From Mangrovimonas spongiae (GTDB taxonomy: Bacteria; Bacteroidota; Bacteroidia; Flavobacteriales; Flavobacteriaceae): a DNA stretch of 64,000 bases. Every line of letters starts with the position of its first letter. Position 1 is the first letter of the stretch. A program made the translations under genes and the position numbers. Under the pieces are notes generated by a model, which did not search any database, was not told where the DNA came from, and saw nothing but the letters and a program-made list of their open reading frames with translations. Location: the NCBI RefSeq assembly GCF_003944795.1, contig NZ_RWBG01000003.1, forward strand, positions 310,001 through 374,000. Reading direction: 5' to 3'. This document shows, piece after piece, positions 3,101 to 33,897 of this stretch.

Positions 3101-3125
3101 TCCCTTAGTTCATAATCTTAATGAT

Positions 3126-3225
3126 GTTATCACGAAAGGCAGAGGGAATAGACCCGACGAAGCCTTAGCAACCCTTTAATTTTAAAGAAGGTGCTAAATT
3201 CTACCCCACAATTGGGACAGATAAC
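3126..3225 (+). ncRNA. SAM-I (S-box) riboswitch upstream of metH
   Basis: All S-box hallmarks are present in order: P1 5' strand GTTATC (3126-3131), GAGGGA (3142-3147), the GACGAAGCC block, GCAACC, AAGGTGCTAAATTC, then GGGACAGATAAC ending with the P1 3' strand GATAAC (3220-3225). The class binds S-adenosylmethionine and represses methionine genes, which matches the methionine synthase genes directly downstream. The expression platform is unusual: only a weak 5-pair hairpin (3228-3243) with a short T run follows, and then an 8-pair hairpin that takes in the metH start codon. Confidence 0.95.
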
Positions 3226-3255
3226 CCGAGAATTATTCTTCTCTCTTTTCATGAT

Positions 3256-9267: not shown

Positions 9268-10014
9268 ATGAAAAAACTACTTTATATAATTGTTTTAATA
9301 GGTTTGTTCTCTTGCGATAGTGAAGATGCAAACGATTGTTTCCAAACGTCGGGGCAAACAGTTCAAGAAGAGATTACAGTTGCAACATTTAATAGGATTT
9401 TAGTTAATAGAAATGTGCAGCTTATTTTAAAAGATGATGTAACAACAAAAGTTGTGGTGGAATCTGGTAAAAATCTTATAAATGATGTTGATATAAAAGT
9501 TGAAAACTCAAAATTAATTATCACCGATAATAATATGTGTAATTATGCACGAGATTATGCCCCAACCAAAGTGTATGTAAGCTCGCCAGATATTTCAGAA
9601 ATACGAACCTCGTCTCAATTTGAAGTATTATCTGATGGCGTATTAAGTTATAATAACTTGAAACTTCTTTCAGAAGATTATAACGGAGGCTCGGAGTTTA
9701 CCGTAGGCGATTTTAGGCTACAATTAGATTGTAGCCAAGTAAGAGTAACCTCTAATAATATATCATCGTTTTATTTATCAGGTACAACTACCAATTTATT
9801 TGTAGGCTTTTTTGCTGGTGCAGGAAGGTTTGAAGGTGCAAATTTAATTGCTGATAATGTAGAGGTTAATCACCGTGGAAGTAATGACATGATTGTTAAT
9901 CCACAACAAGAATTAACAGGTGTTTTACGAGGTACAGGGGATTTGATTTCAGTAAATCAACCACCAATAGTTACTATAGAACGCTTGTATACTGGAGAAT
10001 TGATTTTTTGGTAA
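9268..10014 (+). CDS. GIN-domain (DUF2807-type) lipoprotein
   Basis: The start at ATG 9268 gives MKKLLYIIVLIGLFSC, a classical lipoprotein signal with the acylated Cys at 16; an in-frame GTG at 9244 lies inside the previous gene and is less likely. The mature part is a repetitive beta-structure (FNRILVNRNVQLILKDD ... VEVNHRGSND ... LRGTGDL) typical of the putative auto-transporter adhesin head GIN domain family, common in Bacteroidota and of unknown function. It begins 2 bases after the PagL-like gene, suggesting one transcript, and ends 5 bases from the convergent gldA. Confidence 0.75.
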   Translation: MKKLLYIIVLIGLFSCDSEDANDCFQTSGQTVQEEITVATFNRILVNRNVQLILKDDVTTKVVVESGKNLINDVDIKVENSKLIITDNNMCNYARDYAPTKVYVSSPDISEIRTSSQFEVLSDGVLSYNNLKLLSEDYNGGSEFTVGDFRLQLDCSQVRVTSNNISSFYLSGTTTNLFVGFFAGAGRFEGANLIADNVEVNHRGSNDMIVNPQQELTGVLRGTGDLISVNQPPIVTIERLYTGELIFW

Positions 10015-10018
10015 TCTT

Positions 10019-10915
10019 TTAATTTCTAGTTAAATCTCTGAATAAGCTTTCTAAGCTTGCATTTTTTTGATTGAGTTGTAGAATCTTTAATTGGTTATCA
10101 TGAGCAAAATCAAATACATGCGAGCGCATGTCTTCAGTTGTTGCAAACGTAATTTCATAAACAAAATCGTGCGTATTTTCAACTTTAGAAACCTTAGGGA
10201 GTTTAAGTAAAAAAGCCTCTTCTACACGATAGTCAAATTCTACAATAACGGTTTGTATTTGGTTATCACGAAGATCTTTTAACTTTTTGTCGGCAACAAT
10301 TTCGCCTTTATTTATAATAATAACACGATCGCACATAGCTTCAACTTCTTGCATAATGTGTGTCGATAAAAACACTGTCTTTTCTTTACCAATAGATTTA
10401 ATAAGATTTCTTATATCGATTAGCTGGTTAGGATCTAAACCAGTTGTAGGCTCATCCAGAATTAAAACTTCGGGATCATGTAATAAAGCATTCGCTAAAC
10501 CAACACGCTGTCGATACCCTTTAGAAAGCTGATTTATGGTTTTGTGTGCTTCAGGAGTAAGGCCTGTTAGCTCGATAACATCATCTATTCTAGATTTAGG
10601 AATGTTGTAAACATTGGCGTTAAAGTTTAGATACTCTTTTACATACATATCTAAATACAACGGATTGTGTTCTGGTAAATATCCAACGCGTTTTTGTACG
10701 TCTCTTGAAGAGTCTGCAACATTGTAATCACTTACTTTAGCAGTACCCTTAGAAGCCTCAATATAAGTTGTTAAAATCTTCATCATGGTCGATTTTCCAG
10801 CACCATTAGGGCCTAAAAAGCCAACAATTTCGCCTTTGTCAACTTTAAAAGAAACATTATTTAATGCTTTTTGTTGATTGTAAATTTTAGTGATGTTAGA
10901 AACTTCTATAGACAT
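10019..10915 (-). CDS. gldA: Gliding motility ABC transporter ATPase GldA
   Basis: This 298-residue ATP-binding subunit has Walker A GPNGAGKS (35-42), the signature LSKGYRQR, Walker B VLILDEPTTGLDP and the switch His in STHIM. Sequence and length fit GldA, the ATPase of the GldAFG transporter linked to gliding in Flavobacterium; the GldF and GldG membrane partners are not in this window. The start was taken at MSIEVSNITKIYNQQ because the 11 upstream codons are not typical of the family. Assignment as GldA rather than another ABC-2 ATPase rests on overall resemblance. Confidence 0.8.
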   Translation of the reverse strand: MSIEVSNITKIYNQQKALNNVSFKVDKGEIVGFLGPNGAGKSTMMKILTTYIEASKGTAKVSDYNVADSSRDVQKRVGYLPEHNPLYLDMYVKEYLNFNANVYNIPKSRIDDVIELTGLTPEAHKTINQLSKGYRQRVGLANALLHDPEVLILDEPTTGLDPNQLIDIRNLIKSIGKEKTVFLSTHIMQEVEAMCDRVIIINKGEIVADKKLKDLRDNQIQTVIVEFDYRVEEAFLLKLPKVSKVENTHDFVYEITFATTEDMRSHVFDFAHDNQLKILQLNQKNASLESLFRDLTRN

Positions 10916-11008
10916 AAAACAAGCTGAAATTTTGTCAAAAATAAACAATATTGTCTATCTCAACGCATAGCGAAAACGTTATATTGCAAATCCTTCTAAA
11001 AAAAGATT

Positions 11009-11037
11009 TTGTTTTTTCAATTATTTGGTTACTTTAG
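11009..11037 (+). promoter_or_regulatory. Candidate promoter of the aromatic amino acid operon
   Basis: TTG at 11009-11011, an 18-base spacer and TACTTTAG at 11030-11037 (one mismatch to TAnnTTTG). The start would fall near 11043, only a few bases before the leader-peptide ATG at 11048. Confidence 0.5.
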
Positions 11038-11047
11038 CTTTAACAAA

Positions 11048-11119
11048 ATGAAAACTAATAGCACATTTACATATTATAACTGGTTTTATTTCTTTTTTAG
11101 CAAAGGGAACGAGGCCTGA
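11048..11119 (+). CDS. Aromatic-rich leader peptide of the pheA operon attenuator
   Basis: A 23-codon ORF lies directly upstream of the operon for phenylalanine/tyrosine synthesis. Residues 7-17 read FTYYNWFYFFF: five Phe, three Tyr and one Trp among eleven codons. It ends at TGA (11117-11119), inside the 5' arm of a predicted antiterminator and 39 bases before a strong terminator. This is the layout of a ribosome-mediated attenuator: stalling at aromatic codons leaves the antiterminator free, while finishing translation blocks it. The peptide itself probably has no function after translation. It matches no named leader that I can recall, but the arrangement is self-explanatory. Confidence 0.85.
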   Translation: MKTNSTFTYYNWFYFFFSKGNEA

Positions 11120-11188
11120 TATGTAAACATGTCAAATAAGATAATACTAACAGAAGGTCTCGATTTATTAAATCGGGATTTTTTTTTT
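11110..11188 (+). promoter_or_regulatory. Transcription attenuator (antiterminator/terminator) before pheA
   Basis: Two mutually exclusive structures are visible. The terminator is TCTCGATTT (11158-11166) with AAATCGGGA (11170-11178), a 9-pair stem and 3-base loop followed by ten Ts (11179-11188). The antiterminator pairs CGAGGCCT (11110-11117) with AGGTCTCG (11155-11162), eight pairs with one G-U, and so takes away five bases of the terminator's 5' arm. The first arm overlaps the last codons and stop of the leader peptide, so a ribosome reaching the stop would mask it. Confidence 0.85.
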
Positions 11189-11196
11189 GAATATAT

Positions 11197-12024
11197 ATGA
11201 TTAATTCAGTTGCCATACAAGGTATAAAAGGATCGTTCCACCATATTGTAGCTCAAGCTTTCTTTCAAGAAAACGTCGAGATAAAGGAATACCTGTCGTT
11301 TGATGCTGCAGTGCAAAGTCTTTTAAATGGTCAAACAGATACCGTTATTATGGCGTTAGAAAATTCTATTGCGGGATCAATTATTCCCAATTATGCCTTA
11401 ATCGATGTTAATAAATTACACATTGTAGGGGAGCATTATTTAGATATTCAGCATCATTTAATGGCATTGCCAGGACAGCGTATTTACGATATTAAAGAAG
11501 TGCATTCTCACCCAATGGCTTTATTACAATGTAAAGCATTTTTTGAAGACTACCCGCATATAAAACTTATTGAGGCTAATGATACAGCCGATGTGGCAAA
11601 ACAAATTCAAGACAAGCAATTAAACGGAGTTTCAGCCATAGCAAGTGATTTAGCAGCCAATATTTTTGGTTTAGACATTTTAGCAAAAAGTATACAAACC
11701 ATTTCTCACAACGAAACACGATTTGTTGTAGTAAAACGCCATAACTCAGAAATCACTAAAAACGAGATTAATAAAGTCTCATTAAAATTTGAACTAGAAC
11801 ATAAACGAGGCAGTTTAGCAGCTGTGTTAAACATGATGAGCGACTGCAAGTTAAATTTAACCAAAATACAATCGTTGCCTAAAATAGAGACACCTTGGAA
11901 ATATGCCTTTTTCGTGGATGTTACTTTTGATGATTACAACGATTACAACAAAGCAAAAGCCATACTTAAGCTTATGGCTCAGGATTTTAAAATTCTAGGC
12001 GAATACAAAAATGCAAAACAATGA
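11197..12024 (+). CDS. pheA: Prephenate dehydratase
   Basis: It converts prephenate to phenylpyruvate, the committed step to phenylalanine. The 275-residue monofunctional protein has the two-lobed catalytic domain with the TRF motif (Thr174-Arg175-Phe176) and a C-terminal ACT domain (about 190-270). The usual ESRP Phe-binding motif of the ACT domain reads QSLPK here, so feedback may differ. No chorismate mutase is fused to it; that activity sits on the DAHP synthase three genes downstream. The start is 8 bases after the attenuator T tract, and its stop overlaps the next start (ATGA). Confidence 0.93.
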   Translation: MINSVAIQGIKGSFHHIVAQAFFQENVEIKEYLSFDAAVQSLLNGQTDTVIMALENSIAGSIIPNYALIDVNKLHIVGEHYLDIQHHLMALPGQRIYDIKEVHSHPMALLQCKAFFEDYPHIKLIEANDTADVAKQIQDKQLNGVSAIASDLAANIFGLDILAKSIQTISHNETRFVVVKRHNSEITKNEINKVSLKFELEHKRGSLAAVLNMMSDCKLNLTKIQSLPKIETPWKYAFFVDVTFDDYNDYNKAKAILKLMAQDFKILGEYKNAKQ

Positions 12025-13166
12025 TTACAGTAGCCGATAGATTACATACCGTAGAAGAATATTATTTCTCTAAGAAATTAAAAGAAGTGAATTTTTTAAA
12101 ATCTCAAGGGAAACCTATTATAAATTTAGGTATAGGAAGCCCCGATTTAAATCCATCGGAACGTGTAGTAAGTGCATTAACAGAAAACTTAAGTAAAGAG
12201 GTTGCTCACCAATACCAAAGCTACCAAGGGTTGCCAGAATTACGAGATGCTATAGCACTGTTTTACAAAAAACAATTTCATGTATGGTTAAGTGCACAAA
12301 CCGAAATTTTACCCCTAATGGGAAGTAAAGAAGGCATTATGCATATTTCTATGGCATTTTTAAATCCAGGAGATGAGGTTTTAGCACCTAATCCAGGCTA
12401 TCCTACCTATTCGTCAGTAACCAAACTATTGGGAGCCACACCTATACCTTATAATTTAACCGAAAATACACACTGGTTGCCAGATTTAAAAGCGTTAGAA
12501 AAAACTAACTTAAGTAAGGTGAAAATTATGTGGGTTAATTATCCGCATATGCCAACAGGGGCACAAGCAGATGATATGTTTTATCAGGCATTAATCAATT
12601 TTGCTAAGCGTCATAATATTTTACTAATAAACGACAATCCTTATAGTTTTATACTTAATGATAATCCTAAAAGTATTTTAAAATTTGAAGGCGCCAAAGA
12701 CTGTTGCTTAGAATTAAATTCCTTAAGTAAAACTTTTAATATGGCAGGTTGGCGTGTAGGTATGGTTTTAGGGAAATCGGAATTTATACAACACATACTT
12801 AAAGTAAAAAGCAATATGGATTCGGGTATGTTTTATGGTATTCAAAAAGGTGCTATAGAAGCTTTAAACTGTTCTAATATGTGGTATAAAAGCCTAAATA
12901 GTGTCTATAGAAAGCGCCGGAATTATGTGTGGCAAATTGCCAATGCTTTAAACTGTACTTACAACGAAAATAGTACAGGTATGTTTGTGTGGGCCAAGTT
13001 ACCACCGTTAGTAAAATCAGAAGAATTTGTGGATTTATTATTAAAAGAAAAAGCCATTTTTATTGCGCCAGGAACCGTTTTTGGTAGCAATGGTGAAGGT
13101 TATGTTAGGTTTTCACTTTGTGCCTCAACCGAAGATTTAGAAGAAACCTTAGCAAGAGTAAGATAG
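12021..13166 (+). CDS. PLP aminotransferase class I/II of the aromatic operon
   Basis: This 381-residue fold-type I aminotransferase has the PLP lysine Lys237 in NSLSKTFNMAGWRVG, the NYPHMPTGA segment that replaces the usual NYPNNPTGA, and a substrate-binding Arg near the C-terminus (VRFSLC). Lying between pheA and tyrA, with a 4-base overlap with pheA, it is probably the transaminase that turns phenylpyruvate and 4-hydroxyphenylpyruvate into Phe and Tyr. Use of prephenate or aspartate as substrate cannot be excluded from sequence alone. Confidence 0.85.
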   Translation: MITVADRLHTVEEYYFSKKLKEVNFLKSQGKPIINLGIGSPDLNPSERVVSALTENLSKEVAHQYQSYQGLPELRDAIALFYKKQFHVWLSAQTEILPLMGSKEGIMHISMAFLNPGDEVLAPNPGYPTYSSVTKLLGATPIPYNLTENTHWLPDLKALEKTNLSKVKIMWVNYPHMPTGAQADDMFYQALINFAKRHNILLINDNPYSFILNDNPKSILKFEGAKDCCLELNSLSKTFNMAGWRVGMVLGKSEFIQHILKVKSNMDSGMFYGIQKGAIEALNCSNMWYKSLNSVYRKRRNYVWQIANALNCTYNENSTGMFVWAKLPPLVKSEEFVDLLLKEKAIFIAPGTVFGSNGEGYVRFSLCASTEDLEETLARVR

Positions 13167-13168
13167 AT

Positions 13169-14026
13169 ATGAATATAAAAAATGTATACATAGTAGGTGT
13201 TGGATTAATTGGAGGAAGTATCGCAAAAGATATTAAACATCTCAATCCAGATATTACATTATTTGGAATTGATAAAAATGAAGCTCATTTAAACCAAGCC
13301 TTGGATTTAGGGATTATCGATAATAAAGCGACTTTAAACGATATTGTAAACGCGCATATTGTTATTGTTTCTATTCCTGTAGATGCATCGGTTAATGTAT
13401 TACCGCAAATACTAGACCTCGTTTCAGATGATACCTTGGTTATGGAATCGGGTTCTACCAAATTAGATATTTGTAAGGCAGTTGAAAACCATCCAAAGCG
13501 CAGAAATTTTATGGCTACGCATCCTATTGCAGGAACAGAGTTTTCTGGACCAAGTGCGGCTATTCAAGGGTTGTTTAAAGGAAAAACAAATATTATTTGT
13601 GAGGTTGAAAAAACAGCCTTTAAATTACAAGAAATGGCCTTAGCTATTTTTAACATTATGGGGATGCGAATCCGATATATGAATCCAGAGTCTCATGATA
13701 AACATATTGCTTATGTCTCTCATTTATCACATATAAGCTCATTTATGTTAGGGAAAACAGTTATGGAGAAAGAAAAAAATGAACGTGATATTTTTGATAT
13801 GGCGGGCAGCGGTTTTGCATCAACAGTGCGTTTAGCAAAAAGTTCACCAGATATGTGGACCCCCATTTTTAAGCAGAATAAAACTAATATTATAGAAACA
13901 TTAGACGAATACATTAATAACTTAGAGCGTTTTAAGACATGTTTAGAGACCAATGCTTTTGAAGACGTCTATAAAGAAATGAATGACATCAATCATATAA
14001 AAGACATTTTAAACGGAATTGAATAA
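13169..14026 (+). CDS. tyrA: Prephenate dehydrogenase
   Basis: It oxidatively decarboxylates prephenate to 4-hydroxyphenylpyruvate for tyrosine. Starting at ATG 13169 the protein has 285 residues, with the NAD-binding GVGLIGGSIAKD motif at the N-terminus, the THPIAGTE substrate motif, and SHLSHISSFML. An in-frame upstream ATG at 13118 overlaps the previous gene and adds a non-conserved stretch, so it was not used. No chorismate mutase or ACT domain is attached. It is the third gene of the attenuated aromatic operon. Confidence 0.92.
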   Translation: MNIKNVYIVGVGLIGGSIAKDIKHLNPDITLFGIDKNEAHLNQALDLGIIDNKATLNDIVNAHIVIVSIPVDASVNVLPQILDLVSDDTLVMESGSTKLDICKAVENHPKRRNFMATHPIAGTEFSGPSAAIQGLFKGKTNIICEVEKTAFKLQEMALAIFNIMGMRIRYMNPESHDKHIAYVSHLSHISSFMLGKTVMEKEKNERDIFDMAGSGFASTVRLAKSSPDMWTPIFKQNKTNIIETLDEYINNLERFKTCLETNAFEDVYKEMNDINHIKDILNGIE

Positions 14027-14035
14027 AAGGAAATT

Positions 14036-15118
14036 ATGGAAAACAAAAAAGAATTAAGAAGTTGGTTAGATAGCTTTGGTTTAGAACATCCGTTAGTTAT
14101 TGCTGGACCATGTAGTGCTGAAACAGAAGAACAGGTCCTAAAAATTGCTCATCAATTAAAGGAAACAGATACTACCGTTTTTAGAGCAGGAATTTGGAAA
14201 CCAAGAACACGACCAGGAAATTTTGAAGGTGTAGGCGCATTAGGTTTAAAATGGATGCAAAAAGCAAAAGAAGAAACAGGCTTGCTTACCACAACCGAAG
14301 TCGCAAATGCCAACCATGTAGATTTAGCCTTAAAACACGATGTTGATATTCTTTGGATAGGCGCAAGAACAACAGTAAGCCCTTTTATTGTTCAAGAAAT
14401 TGCAGATGCCTTAAAAGGAACCAATAAACCAGTGTTAATTAAAAATCCTGTTAATCCAGATTTAGCATTATGGTTAGGTGCTGTAGAGCGTTTTTATACG
14501 GCCGATGTAAAAAACTTAGGGGTTATTCATAGAGGGTTTTCAACCTATGAAAAAACCAGATACCGTAATAATCCCGAATGGCAAATAGCCGTCGATTTAC
14601 AAAATCGTTTTCCCGATTTACCATTAATTTTAGATCCATCTCACATAGCAGGACGTCGCGATATTATTTTCGATTTATGCCAAACAGCCCTAGACCTTAA
14701 TTATGATGGCTTTATGGTAGAAACACATCATAATCCCGATAAAGCTTGGAGTGATGCTGCACAGCAAATCACCCCGGAAACACTAAAAACATATACTGAG
14801 GATTTAAAAATTAGAAAGGAAACAGGCGAAGCTGCCGAGTTTAAAAATAAAATCAATACCCTAAGAACACAAATAGATGTTATTGATCATCAATTAATAG
14901 ACATGCTAGGAAAGCGCATGAAAATAGCTGATGATATTGGTAACTTAAAAAAACAGCATAATGTAGCAGTTTTGCAATCGAAACGCTGGAATGAAATTCT
15001 AGGAAAAATGATTTTACAAGGCGAGGAGAAAAAGTTAAGTGAAGAGTTTATTTTAAGAGTATTTAAGGCTATTCATCAAGAGTCTATAAACCATCAAGAA
15101 AAGATAATAAATGGATAA
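14036..15118 (+). CDS. Bifunctional DAHP synthase / chorismate mutase
   Basis: Residues 1 to about 265 form a type I-beta 3-deoxy-7-phosphoheptulonate synthase (VIAGPCSAE, RAGIWKPRTRPG, IGARTT, LDPSHIAG), the entry step of the shikimate pathway. Residues about 270-355 form an AroQ-type chorismate mutase (INTLRTQIDVIDHQLIDMLGKRM). The fusion supplies the mutase missing from pheA and tyrA, and in such fusions prephenate commonly inhibits the synthase. Because its product serves Phe, Tyr and Trp, its place in this operon explains why all three amino acids appear in the leader peptide. Confidence 0.93.
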   Translation: MENKKELRSWLDSFGLEHPLVIAGPCSAETEEQVLKIAHQLKETDTTVFRAGIWKPRTRPGNFEGVGALGLKWMQKAKEETGLLTTTEVANANHVDLALKHDVDILWIGARTTVSPFIVQEIADALKGTNKPVLIKNPVNPDLALWLGAVERFYTADVKNLGVIHRGFSTYEKTRYRNNPEWQIAVDLQNRFPDLPLILDPSHIAGRRDIIFDLCQTALDLNYDGFMVETHHNPDKAWSDAAQQITPETLKTYTEDLKIRKETGEAAEFKNKINTLRTQIDVIDHQLIDMLGKRMKIADDIGNLKKQHNVAVLQSKRWNEILGKMILQGEEKKLSEEFILRVFKAIHQESINHQEKIING

Positions 15119-15182
15119 GGTTGAAATGCTTTTAGGAGCAATCAATAATATTCTTTATTTTGCAGAATATTGATCCAAAAGC

Positions 15183-16127
15183 ATGACAGGAACAGTTTAT
15201 AAATCTACAGGAAGTTGGTATACCGTAAAAACCCAATTGGGAAAAAATTACCAATGCCGTATAAAAGGAAGATTTCGTATAAAAGGTATAAAAAGTACGA
15301 ACCCTATTGCGGTTGGAGACATGGTAGATTTTGAACTAGAAACTAAAAACGATGAAACTACTGGCATCATAAATAATATTCATGACAGGAGAAATTATAT
15401 CGTTAGAAAATCGGTAAACCTATCAAAACAAACACATGTTATTGCAGCCAATATCGATCAGGTTTTTTTATTAGTAACCATCGATAATCCGCCAACATTC
15501 ACCAGTTTTATAGATCGCTTTTTAGTGACTGCCGAAGCGTATGGTATTACAACTATTTTATTGTTTAATAAGATAGATGTTTATGATAAAGAAACGCTAG
15601 ATGAAGTTAGGTATTTAGCACATATTTATCGTAAAATAGGTTATGAATGTATTGGGATTTCAGCAGAAACTGGCAAAAATATTGATAAAGTAAAACATTT
15701 AATGACTGGTAAAGTAAGTATGTTTGCGGGACATTCAGGAGTTGGTAAATCTACGCTAGCAAACGCCATAGAACCCGGATTAGAGTTGAAAACAAAAGTT
15801 ATTTCAGAACAACATCAGCAAGGGCAACATACTACAACTTTTGCAGAAATGTTCGATTTAAGTTTTGGTGCTAAATTAATAGACACACCAGGAATTAAAG
15901 GCTTTGGTATTGTTGATATGGATAAAGAAGAAGTGGGCGATTATTTTCCAGAGTTCTTTAAATTAAAACAAGACTGCAAATTTAATAACTGTATTCATGT
16001 AGATGAACCTAAATGTGCTGTAAAACAAGCTTTAGATGATGATGAAATAGCTTACTCAAGATATCGTAGTTATTTGCAAATACTAGAAGGTGAAGACGAA
16101 CATTATAGAACCGATAATTGGGATTAA
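15183..16127 (+). CDS. rsgA: Ribosome small-subunit-dependent GTPase RsgA
   Basis: This is a circularly permuted GTPase that helps the 30S subunit mature. The 314-residue protein has an N-terminal OB domain (1-70), the GTPase motifs in permuted order (NKID, then SAETGKN, then GHSGVGKSTL, then DTPGIKGFG) and a C-terminal zinc site (CKFNNCIHVDEPKC). It starts 64 bases after the DAHP synthase gene, behind a small inverted repeat (15147-15171), and its stop directly abuts the dtd start. Its placement within aromatic biosynthesis genes appears incidental. Confidence 0.95.
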   Translation: MTGTVYKSTGSWYTVKTQLGKNYQCRIKGRFRIKGIKSTNPIAVGDMVDFELETKNDETTGIINNIHDRRNYIVRKSVNLSKQTHVIAANIDQVFLLVTIDNPPTFTSFIDRFLVTAEAYGITTILLFNKIDVYDKETLDEVRYLAHIYRKIGYECIGISAETGKNIDKVKHLMTGKVSMFAGHSGVGKSTLANAIEPGLELKTKVISEQHQQGQHTTTFAEMFDLSFGAKLIDTPGIKGFGIVDMDKEEVGDYFPEFFKLKQDCKFNNCIHVDEPKCAVKQALDDDEIAYSRYRSYLQILEGEDEHYRTDNWD

Positions 16128-16580
16128 ATGAAAGCTGTTATACAACGTGTTTCAAAAGCAAGTGTTACAATAAACAACAATACTACAGCCAATATACAAC
16201 AAGGTGTTTTGGTGTTGTTAGGAATTGAAGATTCTGATACTATTCAAGACATAGAGTGGTTGTCAAGAAAAATTAATAATCTTCGAATTTTTAACGATGA
16301 AAAAGGTGTTATGAACCATTCGTTAATCGATACAAATGGCGATGCTATTATTGTAAGTCAGTTTACATTACACGCTAGTACAAAGAAAGGGAACAGACCA
16401 AGTTATATAAAAGCGGCAAAACCAGATGTTGCCATACCCATGTATGAAGCTTTTGTAAAACAATTTGAAACAGATTTAGGAAAACCCGTTCAAACAGGTG
16501 AATTTGGAGCAGACATGAAAGTAGACTTGCTAAATGATGGGCCTGTAACCATAATTATAGATACTAAGAATAAAGAGTAA
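16128..16580 (+). CDS. dtd: D-aminoacyl-tRNA deacylase
   Basis: It removes D-amino acids mischarged on tRNA. The 150-residue protein has the DTD-family motifs MKAVIQRVSKASV at the N-terminus, SQFTL, KGNRPSY and the C-terminal GPVT that forms the chiral proofreading site. It starts immediately after rsgA and runs straight into the MazG-like gene with no gap, so these genes are cotranscribed. Confidence 0.95.
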   Translation: MKAVIQRVSKASVTINNNTTANIQQGVLVLLGIEDSDTIQDIEWLSRKINNLRIFNDEKGVMNHSLIDTNGDAIIVSQFTLHASTKKGNRPSYIKAAKPDVAIPMYEAFVKQFETDLGKPVQTGEFGADMKVDLLNDGPVTIIIDTKNKE

Positions 16581-16907
16581 ATGGACATACAAAACGCACA
16601 AAAAGCAGTAGATAATTGGATTAAAGAACATGGCGTTCGTTATTTTAACGAGCTCACCAATATGGCACAACTTACCGAGGAAGTAGGTGAAGTTGCTAGG
16701 ATAATTGCTCGTCGTTATGGCGAACAAAGCGAGAAGGAAAGCGATAAAGACAAAGATTTAGGCGAAGAATTAGCCGATGTTGTTTTTGTGGTATTATGTC
16801 TAGCTAATCAAACAGGAATTGATTTACAAGACGCTTTTAGTAAAAAAATGAACAAAAAAACTAAAAGAGACCACGATAGGCATCATAATAACGAAAAACT
16901 AAAATAA
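16581..16907 (+). CDS. MazG-like nucleotide pyrophosphohydrolase
   Basis: This is a 108-residue all-alpha NTP pyrophosphohydrolase. The metal-binding acidic residues of the MazG family are visible in LTEEVGEVARII and DLGEELADVVFVVLCLANQ. It probably hydrolyses an unusual or damaged nucleotide as a housecleaning enzyme; the actual substrate is unknown. It directly follows dtd and lies 22 bases before aroA. Confidence 0.88.
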   Translation: MDIQNAQKAVDNWIKEHGVRYFNELTNMAQLTEEVGEVARIIARRYGEQSEKESDKDKDLGEELADVVFVVLCLANQTGIDLQDAFSKKMNKKTKRDHDRHHNNEKLK

Positions 16908-16929
16908 CCCATTTTAGAAGAGGTCTATT

Positions 16930-18159
16930 ATGCATTTAAAACTTCATCAATCGCACATAAAAAAAGAGAGTCATATAACAGTCTCAGGGTCTAAAAGCGA
17001 ATCCAATAGGTTACTGTTATTACAAGCTTTATACCCTAAAATAAATATAAGTAATCTTTCCGATTCAGACGATTCTCATGTCATGCAAAAAGGTCTGTCA
17101 GGACATTTTGATGTTGTAGACATTCATCATGCTGGAACAGCTATGCGTTTTCTAACAGCCTATTTTGCTATGCAAGCACAAAAAGAGGTGGTTTTAACAG
17201 GCTCCGAAAGAATGAAAGAGCGTCCCATAAAAATACTCGTTGATGCTTTAAAAAATCTTGGGGCTGATATTACTTATATGGAGAACGATGGTTGCCCACC
17301 ATTAAAAATTTTAGGAAAGGAACTTGTAAAAGACAAAGTAACTCTTAATGCTCATGTAAGTAGCCAGTACATTTCGGCGTTATTGTTAGTTGCTCCTAAA
17401 TTAAAAAATGGGTTAGAGCTAACACTAAAAGGAGAAATAACATCCGTACCATATATAAAAATGACCTTGTCGCTATTAGAGCAAATAGGTGTTGATACAA
17501 CATTTAAGGATAATATTATTACCGTCACCCCAAAACCTAGTTTAGATAAAACGATAGATAGTATTGTAGAGTCCGATTGGTCATCAGCATCTTATTTTTA
17601 TAGCATAGTAGCTATGTCTTCTATGGGGACTAAAATAACTTTATCGTCTTATAAGGAAAATAGTTTGCAAGGGGACTCCGAATTGGCAAGCATATACCAA
17701 CAATTTGGTGTGCAAACCAGTTTTAAAAAGAATACAATAACTCTAGAAAAAATATCAGAAGTTACTCTAGAAAAAGATATCGAACTTAATTTAGTAAACT
17801 GCCCAGATATTGCCCAAACCATAACGGTAACCTGTCTAGGATTAGGTCTTTCATGCTATTTGTCAGGATTACATACACTTAGAATTAAAGAAACCGATAG
17901 ATTACAAGCCTTAAAAACAGAAATTAAAAAACTAGGTGGGCATATTAATATTACAGATAATTCATTAAAATTACACGCTTCAAACAAACTAATAAGAAAC
18001 ATAGAAATCAATACGTATAACGACCATAGAATGGCTATGGCCTTTGCGCCATTAGCACTAAAAACAGACATTTTAATTAAAAATGCCTATGTGGTTACAA
18101 AGTCTTACAAAGCGTTTTGGGATGATTTAAAAACACTTGGATTTAAGATATCTCAATAA
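16930..18159 (+). CDS. aroA: 3-phosphoshikimate 1-carboxyvinyltransferase (EPSP synthase)
   Basis: It joins phosphoenolpyruvate to shikimate-3-phosphate, the penultimate step to chorismate. The 409-residue protein has SGSKSESNR near the N-terminus, AGTAMRFLTA (68-77), ERPIKILVDAL, SSQYISALL, ESDWSSASYFY and NDHRMAMAFA near the end. The segment is more divergent than in textbook enzymes: the Pro that follows AGTAMR in E. coli (Pro101) is Phe74 here. It closes the aromatic gene run, although rsgA, dtd and the MazG-like gene intervene. Confidence 0.93.
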   Translation: MHLKLHQSHIKKESHITVSGSKSESNRLLLLQALYPKINISNLSDSDDSHVMQKGLSGHFDVVDIHHAGTAMRFLTAYFAMQAQKEVVLTGSERMKERPIKILVDALKNLGADITYMENDGCPPLKILGKELVKDKVTLNAHVSSQYISALLLVAPKLKNGLELTLKGEITSVPYIKMTLSLLEQIGVDTTFKDNIITVTPKPSLDKTIDSIVESDWSSASYFYSIVAMSSMGTKITLSSYKENSLQGDSELASIYQQFGVQTSFKKNTITLEKISEVTLEKDIELNLVNCPDIAQTITVTCLGLGLSCYLSGLHTLRIKETDRLQALKTEIKKLGGHINITDNSLKLHASNKLIRNIEINTYNDHRMAMAFAPLALKTDILIKNAYVVTKSYKAFWDDLKTLGFKISQ

Positions 18160-18174
18160 TAATCGGTTAAATAC

Positions 18175-18206
18175 TTGACAACCCATACTTTCAGATTGTA
18201 TATTTG
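18175..18206 (+). promoter_or_regulatory. Promoter of queA
   Basis: TTG at 18175-18177, a 21-base spacer and a perfect TATATTTG at 18199-18206 match the Bacteroidota housekeeping consensus, 26 bases before the queA start. Confidence 0.65.
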
Positions 18207-18232
18207 CACCTTTGAAAATATAAAACAAGCAA

Positions 18233-19282
18233 ATGAAATTATCCAATTTTAATTTTGAACTTCCTAAGGAGTTGTTGGCAGAGTATCCATCAGAGCACAG
18301 AGACGAAGCTCGTTTAATGGTTTTAAACCGAGAAAAGAAAACCATAGAACACAAGCTTTTTAAAGATCTTGTAGATTACTTCAATGAAGACGATGTCATG
18401 ATACTTAATAATACAAAAGTATTTCCGGCTAGACTTTTTGGTAACAAAGAAAAAACAGGTGCAAGAATAGAGGTGTTCTTATTAAGAGAGCTTAACGAAG
18501 AACAACGTTTATGGGATGTTTTAGTAGACCCAGCCAGAAAAATTAGAATTGGTAATAAACTTTATTTTGGCGAAGACGAATCGTTAGTTGCCGAAGTTAT
18601 CGATAATACAACATCAAGAGGAAGAACATTACGTTTTTTATACGATGGTTCTTATACAGACTTTAGAAAAAAGCTGAACGAATTAGGAGAAACACCACTT
18701 CCAAAATACATAAAAAGAGAGGTTGAGCCTGAAGATGAAGATAGATACCAAACTATTTTTGCAAAAAACGAAGGTGCCGTAGCAGCTCCAACAGCTGGAC
18801 TTCATTTTTCTAAACATTTATTAAAACGATTAGAAATTAAAGGCATTAATTTTGCCGAAATTACTTTGCATGTTGGTTTAGGGACCTTCAATCCAGTAGA
18901 GGTAGAAGATCTTTCTAAGCATAAAATGGATAGCGAAGAAATCACTATCGATAAATTAGCTGTTAATACAATTAATCAAGGAATAGCTGAAAAACGAAAA
19001 ATATGTGCAGTAGGAACCACGGTAATGAGAGCTGTTGAAAGTTCGGTGTCTTCAAGCGGAACTTTAAACGAATTCCAAGGGTGGTCTAATAAATTTATTT
19101 TCCCACCTTACGATTTTAGTATAGCTAATTGTATGGTAACAAACTTTCATACACCAAAATCTACATTATTAATGATGGCCTCTGCATTTGCAGGACACGA
19201 TTTTATTATGGAAGCTTACGAAGAAGCCGTAAAAGAAAAATATCGTTTCTACACTTATGGCGATGCGATGTTAATTCTATAA
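18233..19282 (+). CDS. queA: S-adenosylmethionine:tRNA ribosyltransferase-isomerase
   Basis: It transfers and rearranges the ribosyl part of SAM onto the 7-aminomethyl-deazaguanine of tRNA to form epoxyqueuosine. The 349-residue protein has family motifs [14 protein letters not shown] at the N-terminus, [27 protein letters not shown] and [19 protein letters not shown]. It has its own promoter and ends at a strong terminator, so it is probably monocistronic. Confidence 0.95.
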
Positions 19283-32041: not shown

Positions 32042-33897
32042 TAATTTATGCTAAATGGTTGCCCTGAGTAGGGTTTTATATATTCATCTTCTAAGCTATT
32101 GTTTAATAGCCAAGTTTCCATATCGGTTCTGGTAATGTCGCCTTTTAAATATTGTTCAATCATTAAACTGGCTATTCTTCCTGCGTAAATAGATCCATAA
32201 TGCCCATTTTCAACTAAAACAGCAAGGGCAATTTTGGGATCATCTTTAGGAGCAAATGCCACAAAAATAGAGTGATCTTGTAGCTGCATGCGTTCGCCAT
32301 CAATTTTTATAAAGTTTTCGGCAGTACCTGTTTTTCCACAAATCTCTATACCTGGGATTCTTAAAAACTTAGCGGTTCCGTTTTCATAAACATCATATAA
32401 TCCTTCAATAATAGGGTCGAAATGTTTTGGTGCTACGGTTGTTTCATGCTTAGTAACAAAATCTTTGTTTATTTTTTCGCCTTCTATGCCTTTTATAATA
32501 TGTGGTGTATAGTAGTAACCCCGGTTGGCAATAGCGGCAGTGAAGTTAGCCATGTGAATAGGGGTGGTTAAAATTTCGCCTTGTCCAATTGAGTTTGAAA
32601 TAATTGTTGTAGCACCCCAACGAAAATCTGGATACCATTTATCATAGTAAGCACCATCTGGAATATTACCTTTTTTTCCAATAGGTAAATCTGTACCTAG
32701 GTACTGTCCTAAACCAAAGCTTTTAATGTGGTTACTCCATACATCCATCCCTTTACTGGCATTACTATATTTATCGATTGATTTTCTGTAAATAGTTGCA
32801 AAGTAAGAGTTACAAGATTTAGCGATTCCTTTGGTTAAATCTCGGCGTCCGCCACCACAATGACATCCCATTGGGCGTCTTCCGCCATAATGATAAGCGC
32901 CTCTACAGGTTACCGAAAAGCTAGGTGTAATAACATCTTCTTGTAGTGCTGTAAGTGCTACAAGGGCTTTAAAAGGAGAGCCTGGTTCGTGAACACGTAA
33001 TAAGCCTTTGTCTATTAATGGTAGATGAATAGAGTCTTTATAGAGTTTGTTGTAATTTTTAGAACGTTTTCTGCCTACTAATAAATTGGGATTATATGAA
33101 GGTGCCGAAACTAAAGCTAAAATTTCACCAGTTTTTGGCTCTATAGCAACTATGCCGCCTCTTTTGTTTACCATAAGTTTTTCGCCATAAGCTTGTAGTT
33201 TGGAATCTATAGTTATGGTGATATCTTTTCCGGGAACAGGAATAGTATCGAATTTACCGTTTTTGTATGGGCCTAAGTCGCGGTTAAATCGGTCTTTTTG
33301 GATAAACTTAACGCCTTTAACACCACGTAACTCTTCCTCGTAAGACAGTTCAACTCCTTGTTTCCCTATTAAATCGCCCATTTTGTAATAGGGATTTTTT
33401 TGTATTTGCCCTTGGTTAACTTCGGCAATAAACCCTAAAACATTGGCGCCAATAGAGGTTTGATAATCTCTTAAAGAGCGCTTTTGAATGTAAAACCCTT
33501 CATATTTACGCATTTTCTCCTGTAGTACGGCATAATCTTCTTTTGAGAGGTGCGATACAAATACCGATGGCAGTCTTGGCGAATAGTGATAAGCTTTATT
33601 GTAGGTTTTTACAAATTGTGCTTTGTCTATTTTTAATAATGAACAAAATTCAACAGTATCTAAAGGTTTAACTTCTCTAGGAATAACCATAACATCGTAA
33701 GATGGCTGATTAGCAACTAGTAGCTCGCCATTCCGGTCAAAAACAAAGCCGCGTTTAGGGTAATCGTAAACTTTTCGTATAGCAGGGTCTTCAAACAAAT
33801 CGTAGTTGTCCGAATTATAGATTTGTAAGTAGAAAAGTCTGCCAATAAAAACGATTCCTACAACAATAATAGAAACGAATAGTAATAATTGTCTCAT
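32041..33897 (-). CDS. mrdA: Penicillin-binding protein 2 (elongation transpeptidase)
   Basis: The 618-residue protein has an N-terminal membrane anchor (1-27), a pedestal/dimerisation domain and a C-terminal transpeptidase domain with the three active-site motifs: SPFK (in EPGSPFKALVAL), SCN (KSCNSYFATIY) and KTG (ICGKTGTAEN). It crosslinks peptidoglycan together with RodA. It lies immediately after mreD in the operon. Confidence 0.95.
   Translation of the reverse strand: MRQLLLFVSIIVVGIVFIGRLFYLQIYNSDNYDLFEDPAIRKVYDYPKRGFVFDRNGELLVANQPSYDVMVIPREVKPLDTVEFCSLLKIDKAQFVKTYNKAYHYSPRLPSVFVSHLSKEDYAVLQEKMRKYEGFYIQKRSLRDYQTSIGANVLGFIAEVNQGQIQKNPYYKMGDLIGKQGVELSYEEELRGVKGVKFIQKDRFNRDLGPYKNGKFDTIPVPGKDITITIDSKLQAYGEKLMVNKRGGIVAIEPKTGEILALVSAPSYNPNLLVGRKRSKNYNKLYKDSIHLPLIDKGLLRVHEPGSPFKALVALTALQEDVITPSFSVTCRGAYHYGGRRPMGCHCGGGRRDLTKGIAKSCNSYFATIYRKSIDKYSNASKGMDVWSNHIKSFGLGQYLGTDLPIGKKGNIPDGAYYDKWYPDFRWGATTIISNSIGQGEILTTPIHMANFTAAIANRGYYYTPHIIKGIEGEKINKDFVTKHETTVAPKHFDPIIEGLYDVYENGTAKFLRIPGIEICGKTGTAENFIKIDGERMQLQDHSIFVAFAPKDDPKIALAVLVENGHYGSIYAGRIASLMIEQYLKGDITRTDMETWLLNNSLEDEYIKPYSGQPFSIN

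Follow-up and report, generated by a model that had tools for sequence, protein, structure and literature searches.

A candidate ribosome-mediated attenuator with a Phe- and Tyr-rich leader peptide ahead of the aromatic operon of Mangrovimonas spongiae, and its counterparts across Bacteroidota

The window, a stretch of 64,000 nucleotides from Mangrovimonas spongiae, contains on its plus strand an operon of four tightly packed genes. Its first gene is pheA, encoding prephenate dehydratase (11197-12024; Pfam PDT, E 1.4e-53, and NCBIfam), followed by a class I/II aminotransferase gene that overlaps it by 4 bases (12021-13166; Pfam PF00155, E 2e-61), the prephenate dehydrogenase gene tyrA (13169-14026; NCBIfam PRK08507, 381.6 bits at a cut-off of 295; start codon chosen within the ORF) and a fusion of DAHP synthase and chorismate mutase (14036-15118; Pfam DAHP_synth_1 and CM_2). 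The Pfam and NCBIfam matches thus bear out the expectation, voiced before any database search, that the operon includes DAHP synthase. The gene upstream of pheA, gldA (10019-10915, minus strand; TIGR03522, 463.9 bits at a cut-off of 402.6), points away from it.

Ahead of pheA, direct reading and comparison identify a leader peptide ORF, MKTNSTFTYYNWFYFFFSKGNEA, at 11048-11119 of the plus strand. Nine of its 23 codons, which are closed by a TGA stop, specify Phe, Tyr or Trp (codons 7, 9, 10 and 12-17), and with nine aromatics in 11 codons it is the densest of all ATG ORFs of 8-50 codons on both strands of the window, the runner-up having eight. The leader is followed by an intrinsic terminator (11158-11188, plus strand), composed of a stem of nine pairs, one of them G.U (11158-11166/11170-11178), and ten T (11179-11188). 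Arm 3 of the antiterminator, AGGTCTCG (11155-11162, plus strand), overlaps the 5' half of the terminator and can form eight pairs, one of them G.U, with arm 2, CGAGGCCT (11110-11117, plus strand), which lies inside leader codons 21-24 and in the window ends on the first base of the TGA. Since pairing of arm 2 with arm 3 excludes the terminator, the two structures are mutually exclusive, and their location between promoter and first gene is that of a classical attenuator. The original prediction had described this layout, with nine aromatic codons among codons 7-17 of a 23-codon leader, a 9-pair terminator with ten T and an 8-pair antiterminator whose first arm overlaps the leader stop, and it was accurate to the base. 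Elsewhere on the plus strand of the window, at 32446 and 25832, two further short ORFs are dense in aromatics, with 8 and 7 per 11, respectively.

In these 400 bp, the terminator scan yields a single site, where 0.1 would be expected; the identical lax scan over 10000-18400 finds 4 sites at 4.3 expected and by itself is therefore weak proof. Folding of the window leader RNA (z = -4.6) yields as minimum-energy structure a 1:2 hairpin (11061-11132, plus strand), the protector, in which the aromatic codons pair with the region that holds arm 2. When a ribosome is placed as a stall at codons 7-17, 2:3 is the best fold of the nascent RNA, with inner pairs at probabilities of 0.95-1.0 in the cases computed; when it is placed at the stop, the 2:3 pairing of the window's nascent RNA is gone. 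In the nascent RNA of the window with no ribosome, 2:3 has a probability of about 0.6, so the untranslated default is not clear-cut, and the full RNA without ribosome folds as 1:2 plus 3:4. At equilibrium, the terminator wins in the complete RNA in each case computed, even with arm 2 free, so that antitermination would have to rest on co-transcriptional kinetics. The protector pairing recurs: in 115 of 124 leaders (distinct combinations of peptide end and arms, drawn from the 161 loci as they stood before three contig-edge regions were re-cut), arm 2 pairs with upstream leader codons at a probability above 0.5, and the mean fold z of the leaders against mononucleotide shuffles is -2.3.

A predicted sigma-A promoter precedes the leader on the plus strand (11007-11037; TTTTG at 11007-11011, an 18-nt spacer and TACTTTAG at 11030-11037). 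According to the promoter passages of PMC9723704, the TAnnTTTG box of flavobacteria sits at -12 to -5, and this published placement predicts a transcription start near 11042 and a 5'UTR of about 6 nt; in the same passages, leaderless mRNAs amount to 5.5%. The box, in the form TACTTTAG or TACATTAG, is found in 75 of 80 sequences (the window and the 79 nearest loci, from the best 80 of 153), and a TAnnTTTG-like box (at least 5/6) preceded by TTG at a distance of 16-22 nt in 136 of 162 loci, compared with 9.8% of mononucleotide shuffles. Between box and ATG lie 10 nt in the window and a median of 14.5 nt (9-59) in the nearest set, which makes predicted 5'UTRs of about 6-11 nt usual, not universal. 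An ordinary terminator that ends unrelated transcription, with pheA read from a second promoter of its own, would be an alternative, and a weak match of sigma-70 type at 11116-11145 could be taken for such a promoter. Matches of this type, however, occur at chance frequency over 10000-18400 (39 versus 35.7) and the promoter type is not flavobacterial; the conserved promoter sits before the leader. Moreover, in the window the T run ends just 8 bases short of the pheA ATG, and in some relatives (e.g. L004, L008, L012) the ATG directly adjoins the T run; with this gap and with gldA divergent, the terminator serves pheA and cannot serve gldA. The probability left to a separate pheA promoter is close to negligible.

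Among the 80 nearest pheA loci (the best 80 of 153), 79 retain the leader, and in the sole exception (L022) the contig starts 128 nt before pheA, with the aromatic frame still open there. Loss of the leader ORF in relatives, or disruption of its frame, had been named beforehand as the outcome that would speak against an attenuator; instead, the relatives keep the ORF, and gaps before the antiterminator arm preserve the frame. The usual core of the peptide in the nearest loci is T-Y-[YF]-N-W-F-Y-F-F-F-S-K-x-N-E-T-L-Y-V. In the set formed by the window and the 79 nearest loci (again from the best 80 of 153), TTC encodes the Phe that opens the FFF run in 79 of 80 sequences, and 79 of 80 also have the GAG at the heart of arm 2. 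The stop lies three codons later than in the window in 67 of 80; the TGA of the window is an early stop shared by only one other member (2 of 80; the window and L066) and, beyond this set, by L201, L205 and L207. The overlap of the antiterminator arm with the stop codon is hence a minority arrangement. In the family alignment, all internal coding gaps before the antiterminator arm measure 3 or 6 nt (62 rows, few independent events); one 1-nt gap (L062) is located at the arm, and gaps of many sizes follow the stop region.

The strong conservation of the core as a peptide in the nearest loci might also be read as the mark of a nascent-chain arrest peptide, for which TnaC is the model: the motif T-Y-x-N-W-F-Y-F-F-F-S would then itself stall the ribosome on sensing a free amino acid or another signal, and uncharged tRNA would not be the cause. 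Distant loci, however, keep mainly the aromatic content (MASNRFYFSNSFYFFFSRSQDCAMVI; MTKRFFFNGFYFYFFFERGTGLL; MKLFNTYYFGYFYYFSKSRG), and the conservation also fits the RNA pairing of the codons, as indicated by the near-invariant TTC and the 1:2 fold. Arrest by the peptide itself is therefore improbable in our judgement, and stalling on uncharged tRNA is preferred.

The codon content of the leaders was assessed in 163 loci, which are what is left of 165 after removal of two (L116, L135) whose assigned terminator or leader looked wrong by eye; outside the 163 are also the window and L011, L033, L071 and L201, which the hairpin finder missed although their hairpins can be recognised by eye. Every one of the 163 leaders has both Phe and Tyr codons, and 94 have Trp codons, with mean counts per leader of 4.9 (Phe), 3.7 (Tyr) and 0.6 (Trp). 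Such content suits an operon that itself serves to make Phe and Tyr, and Trp fits the role of an optional third signal, for DAHP synthase. The earlier proposal that a mix of all three aromatics suits an operon with DAHP synthase is thus upheld for the operon content, and its Trp part does not hold in general.

A wider set of 203 regions comprised the window, the 80 nearest loci (the best 80 of 153) and 122 regions from genome searches, the latter a selection, not all matches, of loci returned (own genome left out) and chosen stretches; in the underlying searches, 151 of 296, 52 of 198 and 11 of 11 genomes had a locus. The scan took the best ORF per region of about 700 nt, and at least two pairs of regions (L075/L084, L123/L155) represent one locus each. 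With a threshold of at least 6 aromatics in 11 codons, an ORF is present in 170 of 203 regions, as opposed to 29 of 609 dinucleotide shuffles and 12 of 203 reverse strands; at a threshold of at least 8 in 11, the counts are 150 of 203, 0 of 609 and 0 of 203 (both controls were made before three contig-edge regions, L173, L175 and L209, were re-cut). The aromatic leader is not due to chance, and an ORF rich in codons for the products of the pathway, presumably translated, is what a classical attenuator would have. At the threshold of 6 in 11, the scan gave no leader in 33 of 203 regions: one at a contig end, 8 of the 9 regions from a family whose pheA is divergent, and a further 24, among which ORFs of 5 aromatic residues occur, as in L131, L162, L167, L168 and L183. 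In the genome of L131, a covariance model, built on the family alignment with the window included, matches at pheA. Across 40 genomes (own and relatives), this model, which scores the window element at 94.7 bits, gave 27 matches, spread over 25 genomes. For 25 matches, from 24 genomes, pheA lies in the flank; one of these (L238) is the opposite strand of another. The two matches without pheA are a plain terminator (L237) and a Cys/Met-rich leader (L230).

Comparison between families provides the evidence for the antiterminator helix. Within the Flavobacteriaceae alignment the helix hardly varies and there is no covariation signal (86.2% of cells paired, 86.3% in shuffles), and distant families were compared instead. 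In other families of the order and class, peptide and terminator differ and arm 2 alters along with the terminator; examples of arm 2/arm 3 in distant loci are CGAGACT/AGTCTCG, GGCAGGA/TCCTGCC, GTCAGGATTGTG/TACAATCCTGAT, GAGGCTTTGTA/TATAAAGCCTC, ACGGGACT/AGTCCCGT, GAGCGGTC/GACCGCTC and GCCGGGACT/AGTCCCGGC. For the 51 of 163 loci with distinct arm 3, the pairs of a locus with its own partner score 18.5 on average and swapped pairs 13.5; none of 20,000 permutations reaches the own mean, and with one locus per family (17 families) none of 100,000 does so. Single loci are less clear, the own arm being the best of all arms in just 17 of 51, because many terminators share GGGAC. Mononucleotide shuffles of region 2 match the own score in 4.8% of trials, and the arms of some family representatives (L187, L190) are short. 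An alignment of the region upstream of pheA across Flavobacteriaceae, to look for conserved aromatic codons and covarying stems, had been suggested as the check to make: the leader is kept, and the stems change together between families, not within this one.

The geometry fits as well. The ribosome footprint was given textbook limits, 13 nt ahead of the A site and, at termination, -20 to +8 relative to the end of the stop. Counted from the last aromatic codon of the dense stretch (its first base), arm 2 starts at a distance of 6-20 nt (median 14), which is at least 12 nt in 143 of 163 loci. Arm 2 overlaps the modelled footprint of a ribosome at the stop codon in 155 of 163, lying outside it in 8. 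This spacing, by which a stall would free arm 2 and a ribosome at the stop would mask it, is that of a classical attenuator.

Rfam contains no known family at the pheA leader at either gathering or permissive thresholds. The notion that a riboswitch, a T-box or a protein-binding attenuator controls the operon, the ORF being incidental, draws on the fact that these attenuators, too, combine a terminator and an alternative stem; the top Rfam match is to PyrR, albeit at chance level (25.6 bits versus a gathering threshold of 54). However, the 10 Rfam matches obtained at the leader up to E 10 include neither a T-box nor a riboswitch, and the frame-preserving gaps and the codon content point to translation, which makes control of this kind very improbable and argues for a translated leader. 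Bacteroid-trp (RF01692, gathering threshold 49 bits) has no match at 10950-11260, and Phe_leader (RF01859) reaches 21.4 bits at the leader, below its gathering threshold of 55. The latter family is the enterobacterial pheL type, with a Phe leader peptide, alternative hairpins and pheA as target; the leader in the window, by contrast, mixes Phe with Tyr codons, and its operon also includes tyrA and DAHP synthase.

The attenuator logic of the original prediction, in which a stalled ribosome brings about the antiterminator and completed translation the terminator, is supported by sequence and comparison through the leader and its codon content, the conserved frame, the exclusive pairings, the inter-family co-change, the geometry and the position. 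Very probably, then, the element is a classical ribosome-mediated transcription attenuator, which would sense how far tRNA-Phe and tRNA-Tyr are charged (in leaders with a Trp codon, tRNA-Trp as well) and set transcription of pheA, the aminotransferase gene, tyrA and the DAHP synthase gene. We infer that the leader is translated and that stalling and premature termination mediate a response to amino acids in the following manner: RNA polymerase would start a few bases before the leader ATG, with the ribosome close behind. When charged tRNA is scarce, the ribosome would stall in the aromatic run, codons 7-17, and cover the 5' half of 1:2, leaving arm 2 (11110-11117) free just ahead of it; arm 2 may then pair with arm 3 (11155-11162) while the 3' half of the terminator has yet to be transcribed, and the polymerase would read on. 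When aromatics are plentiful, the ribosome would reach the stop and cover arm 2, such that 3:4 (11158-11178) and the T run end transcription before pheA. With no translation, 1:2 would be made first and would hide arm 2, favouring termination; this step is the least certain.

The proposed mechanism is that of the classical leaders pheL, trpL and hisL. Attenuation of this type had been regarded as best described in Proteobacteria, a view to be qualified in that it has also been described in Bacteroidota, as Bacteroid-trp and in the relevant parts of PMC9723704; the surprise is thus smaller than implied earlier. Bacteroid-trp (RF01692) goes back to the portion of Weinberg 2010 (PMC2864571) that deals with it. 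It scores above cut-off in 10 of 21 genomes searched, including Mangrovimonas spongiae, where the match (L150, C4:103570-103692, minus strand) is on another contig than the pheA leader. Like the pheA leader, it belongs to Bacteroidota, and by eye its own-genome match spans a leader ORF, MNTILNNTWWWNFRNATFVK, in which three codons specify Trp, together with a T-run terminator; unlike the pheA leader, it uses Trp codons. The hisG leader of the same genome (C5; L212, 2400-2000, minus strand) carries MTFIQLHHHHFHTCTQAS and then a T-run terminator, by eye, with His codons instead. In the Flavobacterium psychrophilum transcriptome (2021, PMC9723704), the sections concerned report structured elements before pheA and hisG that other Flavobacteriaceae share and that match no Rfam family, and see strong indications of leader-peptide attenuation ahead of amino-acid biosynthesis operons; for the pheA element, which precedes the same gene as here, these sections give no leader peptide, arms, covariation or range beyond the family. 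In the open-licence literature, we found no description of the leader peptide, arms or range of the pheA element. A comparative attenuation survey of 2010 by Lopatovskaya and others may list it. The pheA element has hence been noticed previously and its mechanism is not new in kind; new here are its anatomy, the inter-family covariation and the spread across the class.

Comparison shows what appears to be a leader-peptide attenuator of the aromatic operon to be widespread in Bacteroidota, in many families of one class and, in this genome, beside trp-type and his leaders. We consider it likely, if well short of assured, that the pheA leader is an old class-wide attenuator, a joint sensor of Phe and Tyr (often also Trp) for the whole aromatic branch, whose RNA starts almost at the leader ATG so that the ribosome loads at once and stays coupled to the polymerase, and that the leader codons, the 1:2 protector and the antiterminator arm, which overlap within a single stretch of coding sequence, evolved together in at least 17 families. 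Because such attenuation needs close coupling of ribosome and polymerase, its spread would be indirect evidence for coupling in bacteria without Shine-Dalgarno sequences, among which the pertinent text of PMC9723704 counts the flavobacteria. The pheA leader may also be a ready reporter for aminoacyl-tRNA supply in these bacteria and is a candidate Rfam family.

Three side observations concern other elements. The pheA-less match L230 (G300:C4:25571-25696, minus strand) consists of a short ORF, MCRCMMCINYAGDTIV, and then a terminator, and resembles a Cys/Met leader attenuator; one exact Cys/Met leader pattern derived from it is absent from the window's own genome. In Gelidibacter loci (L018, L028, L044, L061), repeat-like units (by eye, approximately GTTGAACTAATCCCGCC...GGCGGGATCT) lie between attenuator and pheA, and in L028, with about four such units, this stretch is longer by hundreds of bases. 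Finally, the window harbours at 3124-3227 a SAM riboswitch (RF00162, 76.7 bits) ahead of a gene that, judged by eye from its first residues, resembles methionine synthase.
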